NCBI GenBank assembly: GCA_017881025.1
Contig: JADGRJ010000012.1
Coordinates: 1 to 35,565 of the forward strand
Origin: Rhizobacter sp.
Lineage (GTDB): Bacteria > Pseudomonadota > Gammaproteobacteria > Burkholderiales > Burkholderiaceae_C
Length of the DNA: 35,565 nt
Direction: 5' to 3'
Positions within the stretch are counted from its first letter, which is position 1, and each line of letters starts with the position of its first letter. A program made the position numbers and the translations under genes. The notes under the pieces are model-generated. The model was not told where the DNA came from. It made no database searches and was given only the letters and a program-made list of their open reading frames with translations. This document shows, piece by piece, positions 11,674 through 18,049 of this stretch.

Positions 11674-13014
11674 ATGCGCGTCGCCGTCATCGGGGCCGGC
11701 GTGATCGGCGTGACGACGGCCTACGAGCTCGCCGTCGACGGCCACGAGGTGACGGTGTTCGAGCGCCGCGGCACCGTCGCTTCCGGCTGCAGCTTCGCCA
11801 ACGCCGGCCTGGTCGCGCCCGGCTACGTCGCGCCCTGGGCCGCGCCGGGAATGCCGGCCAAGGTCGCGCGCCATCTCTTCGCGGCGCATGCGCCAGTGCG
11901 GATCGCCGGCCGGCTCGATGCCGCGACGCTCGGCTGGGCCTGGCGCTGGTGGCGCTCGTGCCGGCCCCAGGTGTACCGCGCGAACCGCGCGCGCATGCAC
12001 CGCCTCGCCCACTTCAGCCGCGAGCGGCTGCTCCAGCTGACGGCGCGGCTGCACCTCGATTTCGAGCGCGCGCAGGGCTTCCTCGTCCTTCTTCGCAGCG
12101 CCGGCGAGCTGGCGGTCGCCGAGGCGGGCGTGCGTGCCCTCGCCGAGCTCGGCGCGGCCCCGGTCGTCCTCGACGCCGCCGGCTGCCGCGCGATCGAGCC
12201 CGGCCTCAACCCGGCGACGCCGCTCCATGCCGGCATCTACTCGAAAGACGACGAGGTCGGCAACTGCCGCGAGTTCACGCACCTGCTGCGCAAGGAAGCC
12301 GAGCGCGCCGGCGCGGTCTTCCGCTTCAACGCCCACGTCGAGCAAATCAGTGCCGGCGCGCGACCATCGCTGCGCGTGATGCAGGCACCGCACGACGCGC
12401 GCGACGAGGCGCTGCGCTCGCTCGACCCGGGCGAGTGGCCGACGACGCAGCCGCAGGCCGGCGAGACGACCGAGCCGAGCTTCGATGCGATCGTCGTCTG
12501 CGCCGCGCTCGAATCGCGGCCGCTGCTGAAGCCGCTCGGCGTTCGCCTGCCGCTCCTGGCGGTGCACGGCTACTCGGTCACCGCGCCGCTGCGCCACGAC
12601 GACGCGCACCTCCACCTCGAGCCCCGCGCCGCGCTGATGGACGAGCGCTACAAGGTCGCGATCAGCCGCCTCGGCCAGCGCGTCCGCGTCGCCGGCAGCG
12701 CCGAGATCGGCGGCGACGCCGAGCGCCAGAACGAGCAGGCGCAGGCGACGCTCGACAAGGTCCTCGACGACTGGTTCCCCGGCGTGACGCGGCGCAGCGC
12801 CGCGCAGCGCTGGAAAGGCGCGCGGCCGATGCTGCCCGACGGGCCGCCGGTGCTCGGGCCGAGCGGAGCCGAAGGCGTCTGGCTCAACGTCGGCCACGGC
12901 GGCAGCGGCTGGGCGCTCGCCGCCGGCTCGGCGCGGCTCGTCGCCGACGCGATCGCCGGACGCAAGACGCCGATCGAGATCGATGGCCTCGGCATCGAGA
13001 GGCTCAGGGCATGA
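11674..13014 (+). CDS. dadA: D-amino-acid dehydrogenase (DadA-like, FAD-dependent)
   Basis: DadA oxidises D-amino acids to 2-oxo acids and ammonia, passing electrons to the respiratory chain from the inner face of the membrane. The 446 residues start with an FAD-binding VIGAGVIGVTTAYEL (residues 5-19). The DadA-typical FANAGLVAPGYVAPWAAPGMP block follows, and the C-terminal WLNVGHGGSGWALAAG FAD segment is present. AGGG lies upstream of the ATG, and the gene follows the amidase gene by six bases, so the two are probably cotranscribed. The family also includes glycine oxidases and other FAD amine oxidases, but the NAG..PGYVAPWAAPG pattern favours DadA. The stop (GCA TGA) forms an ATGA overlap with a 27-codon mini-ORF that leads to nnrDE. 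Confidence 0.9.
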   Translation: MRVAVIGAGVIGVTTAYELAVDGHEVTVFERRGTVASGCSFANAGLVAPGYVAPWAAPGMPAKVARHLFAAHAPVRIAGRLDAATLGWAWRWWRSCRPQVYRANRARMHRLAHFSRERLLQLTARLHLDFERAQGFLVLLRSAGELAVAEAGVRALAELGAAPVVLDAAGCRAIEPGLNPATPLHAGIYSKDDEVGNCREFTHLLRKEAERAGAVFRFNAHVEQISAGARPSLRVMQAPHDARDEALRSLDPGEWPTTQPQAGETTEPSFDAIVVCAALESRPLLKPLGVRLPLLAVHGYSVTAPLRHDDAHLHLEPRAALMDERYKVAISRLGQRVRVAGSAEIGGDAERQNEQAQATLDKVLDDWFPGVTRRSAAQRWKGARPMLPDGPPVLGPSGAEGVWLNVGHGGSGWALAAGSARLVADAIAGRKTPIEIDGLGIERLRA

Positions 13015-13094
13015 GCGGCCACGCACGGCCGCTCCGAAGGGGCCGCTCCGTCCCGCTCGGCGGGACCGCGCGCAGCGCGAGGGTGCACCAGTGA
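13011..13094 (+). other. 27-codon mini-ORF in a hairpin-rich unit bridging dadA and nnrDE
   Basis: Its ATG overlaps the dadA stop (ATGA), and its TGA overlaps the nnrDE GTG (GTGA). The predicted peptide (MSGHARPLRRGRSV...) is basic and low in information. The same stretch has two strong inverted repeats: GCGGCC/GGCCGC at 13015-13032 with a 6-base loop, and GTCCCGC/GCGGGAC at 13050-13066 with a 3-base loop. There is also a repeated GGCCGCTCCG at 13027 and 13041. TGAGCGGC occurs at both edges (13012 and 13092), exactly 80 bases apart. This looks like an inserted small repeat rather than a gene. Confidence 0.4.
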
Positions 13095-14626
13095 GCGGCA
13101 TCGAGCGCATCGACGGCACGGCCGCTCGGGTCGCGCTGCTCGGCGTCGCGGCGACGCGAAAGGTCGAGGGCGAAGCGCTCGCGGCGTTGCCGGCCTTCAC
13201 GCTCATGGCGCGCGCCGGCGCGGCGGTGGCGCGCCTGGCCCTCGCCGTGGCACCGCATGCCGAGCGCATCGTCGTCTTCGCCGGCCCCGGCAACAACGGC
13301 GGCGACGGCATCGAGGCGGCGACTCGCCTGTGCGATTGGGGCAAGCCGACGTCGGTGCTCCGCGTCGGCGGCGCGTCCACGCTGCCCGCCGACGCGGCGC
13401 AGGCGCTCGCCCGTGCCAGCGATGCCGGGGTCGAGATTCGCGCCTTCGATCCGAGTGAAGCGGCGACGGGCGATCGCCCCGATCTGGTCATCGACGCCCT
13501 TCTCGGCATCGGCGCGTCGCGCCCGCCCGAAGGCGAGATCGCCGCCGCGATCGCTCGCATCGCCGAGCTCGCCGCGCTCGGCGCGCGGGTCCTCGCCGTC
13601 GACGTGCCGTCGGGGCTCGACGTCGACCGCGGCCAGCCGCTCGGCGCCGCCTGCGTCGTCGCCGACGACACGCTGACGCTGATCGCACCGAAGCCCGGCC
13701 TGTTCACCGGCAGCGGCCGCGATCACGCCGGGCGGGCGTGGTGCGCGCGACTCGACGTCGACGCGAGAGACGCCGTCGCCGATGCCTGGCTCGTCGGCAC
13801 TCGCGATCCCTCCTGCGCCGCCGCGCCGCGGCGTCATGCGTCACACAAGGGAAGCTTCGGCGACGTCGCCGTCGTCGGCGGCGCGCCCGGCATGGCGGGC
13901 GCGGCGTGGCTCGCGGCCTGTGCCGCGCACGCAGCGGGCGCGGGCCGGGTGTTCGTCGATCTCGTCGGCGATGGCAACGGCGAAGCCGGCGGCGAGATCG
14001 ATCCGCTCCGCCCCGAGCTGATGTTCCGTCGCGGCTGGGCCGCGAGCGATGCCGCCATCGTCGCCGCGACCACCGTCGTCTGCGGTTGCGGCGGCGGCGA
14101 TGCGGTGCGGGCGACGCTGCCGCGACTGCTGTCGATCGCCGCTCGCCTCGTCCTCGATGCCGACGCCCTCAATGCCGTCGCCGCCGATCCTTCGCTCCTG
14201 GCCCTGACGGCGGCGCGCGAGCGCCGCGGCCATGCGACGATCATGACGCCGCATCCGCTCGAGGCCGCACGTCTGCTCGGCAGGACGGCCGCGACCGTGC
14301 AGGCCGATCGCCTTCGCGCGGCGCGCGAGCTCGCGGCGCGCTACCGGTCGGTGGTCGTGCTCAAAGGCTCCGGAACCGTCATCGCCGCCCCCGATGGCAC
14401 TGCGCGCATCAACGCTACCGGCAACGCGGCGCTCGCGAGCGCCGGCACCGGCGACGTGCTCGCGGGCTGGATCGGCGGCCGCTGGGCATCGCTCGCGGCG
14501 AGCGCGTTCGACGTCGCGACGCGGTCAGTGATCGAGCACGGCGCCGGCGCCGAGCCCGAGCGTCCCGGTGCACTGCGTGCCGCCGATCTCGTCGAGATCC
14601 TGCATCACCGCGCCCGCGGCGACTGA
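13091..14626 (+). CDS. nnrDE: Bifunctional NAD(P)HX epimerase / ADP-dependent NAD(P)HX dehydratase
   Basis: This two-domain enzyme repairs hydrated NADH and NADPH. The N-terminal YjeF_N epimerase domain interconverts R- and S-NAD(P)HX, and the C-terminal carbohydrate-kinase-like domain dehydrates the S form with ADP. The epimerase motif GPGNNGGDG is at residues 65-73, and VPSGLDVDRG marks the domain end. The dehydratase has HKGSFGDVAVVGGAPGMAGAA and the nucleotide-site GTGDVLAG at residues 452-459. I chose the GTG at 13091 (511 aa), with GAGGG seven bases upstream; the reading frame stays open further upstream but has no family similarity there. Betaproteobacteria normally have this fusion. 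The link to dadA and the amidase gene may be only positional. Confidence 0.93.
   Translation: MSGIERIDGTAARVALLGVAATRKVEGEALAALPAFTLMARAGAAVARLALAVAPHAERIVVFAGPGNNGGDGIEAATRLCDWGKPTSVLRVGGASTLPADAAQALARASDAGVEIRAFDPSEAATGDRPDLVIDALLGIGASRPPEGEIAAAIARIAELAALGARVLAVDVPSGLDVDRGQPLGAACVVADDTLTLIAPKPGLFTGSGRDHAGRAWCARLDVDARDAVADAWLVGTRDPSCAAAPRRHASHKGSFGDVAVVGGAPGMAGAAWLAACAAHAAGAGRVFVDLVGDGNGEAGGEIDPLRPELMFRRGWAASDAAIVAATTVVCGCGGGDAVRATLPRLLSIAARLVLDADALNAVAADPSLLALTAARERRGHATIMTPHPLEAARLLGRTAATVQADRLRAARELAARYRSVVVLKGSGTVIAAPDGTARINATGNAALASAGTGDVLAGWIGGRWASLAASAFDVATRSVIEHGAGAEPERPGALRAADLVEILHHRARGD

Positions 14627-17964: not shown

Positions 17965-18049
<85 letters not shown>

Follow-up and report, generated by a model that had tools for sequence, protein, structure and literature searches.

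The dadA/nnrDE Junction

The DNA analysed here, called the window throughout, is a stretch of 35,565 nucleotides from Rhizobacter sp. (assembly GCA_017881025.1, contig JADGRJ010000012.1, positions 1-35,565, forward strand). In it, a DadA-like oxidoreductase gene is followed by a gene for a NAD(P)HX epimerase/dehydratase, and the junction between the two is occupied by a short unit with predicted hairpins. The features of this region are the following:

11674-13014, plus strand: upstream gene, DadA-like FAD-dependent oxidoreductase (dadA; Pfam DAO, E = 3.1e-59)
13011-13090, plus strand: element unit of 80 bp, ATGAGC ... GGTGCACCA, directly 5' of the nnrDE start, with boundaries taken from other copies
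13011-13094, plus strand: open reading frame of 27 codons (mini-ORF), translation MSGHARPLRRGRSVPLGGTARSARVHQ
13013-13034, plus strand: predicted hairpin 1, arms GAGCGGCC (13013-13020) and GGCCGCTC (13027-13034), which covary across copies
13050-13066, plus strand: predicted hairpin 2, GTCCCGC-TCG-GCGGGAC, arms 13050-13056 and 13060-13066
13067-13079, plus strand: predicted hairpin 3, CGCGC-GCA-GCGCG, arms 13067-13071 and 13075-13079
13079-13082, plus strand: GAGG, Shine-Dalgarno-like by its sequence, 8 nt before the nnrDE GTG
13091-14626, plus strand: downstream gene, NAD(P)HX epimerase/dehydratase (NnrD/NnrE-like, nnrDE; Pfam YjeF_N, E = 5.7e-39, and Carb_kinase, E = 7.1e-38)

The order within the unit is ATGAGC, hairpin 1, hairpin 2, hairpin 3, the Shine-Dalgarno-like motif and CCA; judged from the copies described below, its left boundary, ATGAGC, is nearly constant, and its right boundary, NTGA, is variable. 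The ATG of the mini-ORF overlaps the dadA stop as ATGA, and its TGA (13092-13094) overlaps the nnrDE start as GTGA. An initial annotation had pointed to a sequence repeated on the dadA stop and on the nnrDE start, and the positions are confirmed: TGAGCGGC is found at 13012-13019, where it covers the stop codon (TGA 13012-13014), and at 13092-13099, where it begins on the second base of the start codon (GTG 13091-13093), with a start-to-start distance of 80. The internal repeat is also present, as GGCCGCTCCG at 13027-13036 and 13041-13050, the frames of dadA and nnrDE are both intact around the insert, and the 27-codon ORF is indeed open over 13011-13094. The strong inverted repeats noticed at that time exist as well, but three hairpins are predicted and not two; moreover, a second GGCCGCTC at 13041-13048 is a possible alternative partner for hairpin 1.

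A reading of the unit as an intrinsic terminator was discarded, as the GC hairpin is not followed by a U run and a T run is absent from 13011-13099. A search of the whole window against Rfam at the gathering cut-off gave no match except for one tRNA, an ordinary gene at 17965-18046.

Copies in the Genome of Origin

The genome to which the window belongs is a draft of 4.33 Mb in 425 contigs, with a completeness of 98.63%. When the stretch 13011-13099 was compared with it by BLAST, 10 matches were found at E ≤ 0.001, in 9 loci, and six copies were near full length, with 93-100% identity over 86-89 bp. Besides the window, the near-full copies separate a kaiC-like gene from a histidine kinase gene, two ketosynthase genes from each other, gspL from gspM, ribH from nusB, and an unassigned ORF from ctaA/COX15. 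The proposal that a small dispersed element had been inserted between dadA and nnrDE is therefore borne out by its several copies in the genome. A profile built from 38 copies matched the window copy, itself one of the 38, with E = 1.7e-21, the next best match in the window having E = 0.13. A covariance model built from the same number of copies added diverged members, among them a type of about 60 bp, and gave 29 matches at E < 0.005 in the whole genome.

In two further loci of this genome (L007/L091 and L008/L093) the unit carries an extra hairpin of 27 nt around AGTGAGCCCTTCAGG, with the frame kept at 36 codons. Weaker related repeats, with CCCCCTCGGGGGG hairpins and a common GGCCGCCCCAAGG core, were also seen (L104-L111), several of them in other orientations or contexts.

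The folding energy of the window copy is ordinary with respect to dinucleotide shuffles (z = −1.38; 24 of 200 shuffles fold as well) and, since the shuffles fold nearly as well, it proves nothing when taken alone. What exceeds chance for this unit is its repetition across the genome, not its folding energy.

Placement and Reading Frame

The alignment of 38 copies derives from 55 rows found by BLAST in the own and related genomes, 39 of which have mini-ORFs of exactly 25, 26 or 27 codons; its rows were picked by mini-ORF length, 17 being left out, and for this reason the frame counts were taken from a different set. This consists of 51 profile matches, namely all 29 at E ≤ 1e-5 in two genomes of the family (G126 and G149), three of which belong to a single array, and the 22 best of the 60 found in the own genome.

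As for the ends, the right one is NTGA in 46 of the 51 matches and the left one in 43, the remaining 8 lacking a left NTGA. An open frame of 20-36 codons stops exactly on the right NTGA in 36 of the 51 matches, in another 10 the open unit continues in the frame of the right-hand start (a left start codon is missing from 4 of them, and one opens only 5 codons), and 5 break the rule. Thirds would be expected if the frame were irrelevant, but the copies are related and their counts are not independent. Two of the five exceptions still end on a start codon, L082 by TGATG and L137 by an ATGCTAG overlap. Thus, the stop/start overlap that marks a translational coupling joint is present at the right end in the 36 NTGA cases and in one more with TGATG. 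The length of the unit is such that a frame opened at its own ATG can end on the TGA of NTGA or enter the gene in frame.

The right-hand starts belong to real genes: the frames that they open match Pfam families in 30 of 34 cases tested, often from the first residues, downstream frames shorter than 90 codons (L115, L128, L138) and an inner array row (L113) not having been given to Pfam. Upstream frames match in 10 of 11. The functions of the neighbours are unrelated and include a urease beta subunit, FolB, LptE, IGPS, an FlhA-like protein and ABC transporters, among others. The element lies between unrelated gene pairs, in sense orientation and directly in front of an NTGA-type start codon; what the initial annotation had overlooked is that the mini-ORF and this placement are the rule across the element family.

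In five loci (L047, L054, L062, L072 and L194) the frame of the element continues into the N-terminus of the protein encoded downstream (Tat-signal, oxidoreductase-like, MutY-like and MurG proteins), so that it may supply the start codon there. N-termini derived from the element were recognised by eye in MutY, MurG and others.

Conserved Structure

The hairpins predicted in the window copy were compared across the family. For the arms of hairpin 1, 78 of 132 pairs are Watson-Crick against a permuted mean of 42.7 (sd 4.9; none of 2000 permutations as high) in 33 distinct copies, 17 of 71 copies that miss the arm motif having been left out of this comparison. The inner pairs of hairpin 3 show C-G/G-C swaps, with both sides changed in 14 and 16 of 38 copies. 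A Shine-Dalgarno-like 4-mer (AAGG, GAGG, GGAG or AGGA) stands at the corresponding place in 46 of 71 copies, and AGGG or GGGG was read by eye in 21 of the other 25.

The open frame kept in 36 of the 51 matches, together with common ends such as ..RVHQ in many copies, could suggest that these are functional small genes, in which a conserved peptide of 20-36 residues has been copied beside many operons. We regard this as very improbable: the letters of hairpin 2 are read in one frame in 23 of 38 copies and in another frame in 14, while the DNA hairpins stay and covary, the lengths vary from 20 to 36 codons, and in 10 of 51 matches the unit is in frame with the gene instead. Judging from the aligned sequences, what is conserved is the structure, together with a frame that stays open and ends in the right place, and not a peptide.

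Ends of the Element

The initial annotation had interpreted the 8-bp flanking repeat as the trace of an insertion, and a MITE with an 8-bp target duplication was the explanation first proposed. Among 60 copies, the left N is an A 56 times and a G 4 times, and GC comes next in 59; on the right, N is an A 38 times, a G 19 times and a T 3 times, with various bases after the NTGA. At positions 5-10, the two sides agree in 196 of 360 comparisons, against 187.4 in permuted pairs (sd 6.1; 459 of 5000 as high), and no excess of left/right matches was found at any stretch examined in the 60 copies. Since the sides match no more than permuted pairs, we attribute the left ATGAGC to the element and the right NTGA to the target, with no detectable duplication. 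With a left end near-invariant and a right end variable over 60 copies, the flanking repeat does not hold as a target duplication. The 8 matching bases of the window come from nnrDE happening to start with GTGAGCGGC, and the repeat is in part a coincidence; in fact, among six close copies, all 8 bases of it are found only in the window copy. At murG, ATGAGCAC is common to both sides, and a short duplication may have occurred at single loci such as this one. The copy at ribH has an extra GTG on its left. Terminal inverted repeats of the MITE type were not found, the left ATGAGC and the right ..GCACCA not being complementary when the alignment was inspected by eye. A MITE, for which the repeats on both sides in the window and at murG would speak, is thus hardly credible in view of the lack of left/right excess over 60 copies.

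A more serious alternative, unlikely in our opinion and yet the one that we take most into account, is that a Y1 (HUH) transposase moves the unit as an ordinary satellite of the REP/REPIN or IS200 type, in which case the placement on start codons would be what selection has left over. Hairpins, the absence of a detectable duplication and a constant terminal TCAT beside a target TCAN (bottom strand) resemble single-strand transposition. Moreover, the Y1 transposase family (PF01797) has matches in 10 of 12 genomes searched, and CGTC, found internally in 12 of 38 copies (GTAG in 6), is located at the base of hairpin 2 in the window copy (13049-13052) as well as in 7 more of the 38. By contrast, no Y1 match was found in the own genome, despite its many copies, or in G126, which has 21; two genomes (G023 and G105) possess Y1 and have no profile match; when Y1 loci were scanned with the profile, the best match in 17 of 20 had an E value of only 0.015; and neither GTAG nor CGTC occurs within 8 nt of either end in any of the 38 copies. 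REPs are, furthermore, described as mostly intergenic (PMC3733652). The suggestion of a REP-like nature is therefore not sustained, there being no end tags in the 38 copies and no Y1 match in the own genome.

Tandem Arrays

Arrays of two to five units were examined at ten loci; adjacent units there share a 4-bp overlap or continue in frame. As read by inspection, 8 of the 10 arrays, whether as a chain or as a fused frame, finish on the NTGA of the downstream gene; the names of the neighbours also come from inspection, except for MurG and NtrY, whose proteins served to find orthologues. Arrays that keep the rule include ftsW-murG (L145), an NtrY-like histidine kinase (L113 and L143) and livH-livM as read (L144). 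In L141, five units of 78 bp follow one another in frame, with no stop within the 100-codon view, and the frame, followed by hand, stops on the ATGA at which the next gene begins. An exception is L149, whose fused units are followed by a frame that closes after 68 codons. The third unit of L144 contains another, inserted hairpin repeat, despite which the frame terminates on the ATGA downstream. Such arrays would grow or shrink by tandem duplication.

Empty and Filled Junctions

In one genus, three species share the flanks of ftsW-murG, and the junction is plain in one of them (L182), holds a single unit in another (L181) and three units in the last (L180); the element is found in 3 of the 20 loci listed of 30, one of them, L194, in frame within murG. 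At the ntrY junction it is present in 4 of the 24 loci listed of 30, as three units, two units, one unit and a remnant. The ribH-nusB copy occurs only in the own genome among the 22 loci listed of 30 and is absent from the 21 others; in five other members of the genus this junction is a plain NTGA overlap. As for dadA-nnrDE, the 9 nnrDE loci listed of 30 include five relatives with dadA upstream, and in all five the element is absent and a short gap is present. The comparison of orthologous junctions recommended at the outset hence agrees with an insertion, but the direct stop/start overlap imagined for dadA/nnrDE before it finds no counterpart in these five gaps. The clean empty/filled comparisons are those of ftsW-murG and ribH-nusB, the junction of the window having no clean empty site among its relatives. 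From the variation between filled and empty states at the four junctions, we conclude that the element comes and goes.

The ntrY remnant (L151, in G169) has an internal deletion and keeps a 19-codon frame ending on GTGA. At ftsW-murG, three further loci (L185, L195 and L196, in G010, G007 and G019, respectively) contain an insert of another kind, about 85-110 bp long, with repeated sequence from the ftsW 3' end at its flanks, for example CTCATGCACGGAGGCCGTGTATGA in L195 and L196.

These comparisons also bear on the idea that the unit is a cis-acting RNA regulator (a coupler, an attenuator or an RNase site), selected at each junction and spreading by tuning the downstream gene. Conserved hairpins with covariation, the Shine-Dalgarno-like motif and the placement at starts would fit it; on the other hand, no Rfam family other than the tRNA was found in the window at the gathering cut-off, the downstream genes are unrelated and occupancy changes within a genus. 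As a primary explanation we deem it rather improbable, whereas regulation in cis may be a secondary role of a mobile element.

Distribution among Bacteria

By BLAST at E ≤ 0.001, 16 of 60 relatives gave a match, and none of 24 genomes from other families of the order did. Of 150 genomes of the family, 126 had a profile match at E ≤ 0.01, a threshold at which some of the weak matches may be to related repeats, and 43 had one at E ≤ 1e-10. In 184 genomes sampled from the class, two had profile matches at E ≤ 1e-6, the own genome and one more member of the family. In one carrier, Azohydromonas caseinilytica, the element lies between genes read as napE and napD. A scan of contigs matched one named record; a plasmid search gave no match with the window copy and one record, a Variovorax paradoxus plasmid, with the copy of a relative; a phage search gave no match to the element.

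A Putative Mobile Cistron Joint

With its anatomy, its placement and its gain and loss established by these comparisons, we consider with good confidence that the window unit is a copy of a mobile element, dispersed and non-autonomous, which belongs to one betaproteobacterial family and acts as a ready-made cistron joint. A ribosome finishing dadA at ATGA would restart on the mini-ORF, unwind the hairpins, stop at GTGA and restart on nnrDE, aided by the GAGG of the element. The insertion would put another joint, one still able to couple translation, in the place of a short one, so that the element would be tolerated where other insertions are polar; on these grounds, translational coupling across it is probably preserved. 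Movement of the element would depend on a recombinase acting in trans, which would recognise the hairpins and insert the element beside NTGA (TCAN on the opposite strand) without detectable target duplication.

We propose, more tentatively and somewhat short of calling it likely, that this is a separate class: a transposable cistron joint that would target the start codon of the downstream gene (NTGA), carry a stop-overlap, a mini-cistron, a ribosome-binding motif and a start-overlap, and spread through operons leaving coupling unbroken.

Bacterial genomes dense in coding sequence have little room for insertions, and the joint between cistrons seems a safe place. If our reading is true, the element offers a natural test of how far ribosomes relay between genes, accounts for many small ORFs, 20-36 codons long, that are found next to real genes in this family, and may serve as a portable part for coupling genes. 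A further question is whether an enzyme or selection confines the element to start codons, and whether these are a target of insertion or the place where insertions survive.

Comparison with Known Systems

Seen beside known repeats, it is a real, dispersed and probably mobile element with an unusual placement rule, at least a variety of the small palindromic repeats and possibly a class of its own. The descriptions of REP, MITE, RPE, BOX and Bor repeats compared here include no repeat that acts as a start-codon mini-cistron, and searches of the open-access literature listed none, subscription papers lying outside this scope and priority being not proven; a search of open-access papers for DNA strings taken from the copies gave no match.

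The REP/REPIN-RAYT systems share with the element short dispersed hairpins and the lack of an autonomous gene, and differ in that the latter has no terminal GTAG/CGTC tag, has no Y1 match in the own genome and sits on start codons. The Bor repeats of Bordetella, described as short stem-loop repeats near coding regions (PMC1590033), are similar in kind and occur in a betaproteobacterium; by that description they measure 26-30 bp and are REP-like, which sets them apart. The pneumococcal BOX elements are mobile, modular repeats able to form ORFs (PMC3049150), as is the present element; the ORFs of BOX are incidental and larger, and targeting of start codons is not part of the BOX description in that source. 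The Rickettsia palindromic elements are, like the present one, small and mobile, palindromic in type and compatible with reading frames; many of them are inserted in frame in genes (PMC10969869), a situation to which the 10 of 51 matches in frame with the right-hand start may correspond; compared by description, they are about 150 bp long and lie inside genes, whereas the present element is of 60-110 bp, lies between genes on the start codon and has as its feature its own start and stop at the joint. Finally, a role of ATGA/TGATG overlaps in coupling by termination and reinitiation has been published (PMC6728339), and identical overlaps are kept on both sides of the element; while the joints treated in that work are joints of host genes, here one is supplied by a repeat.
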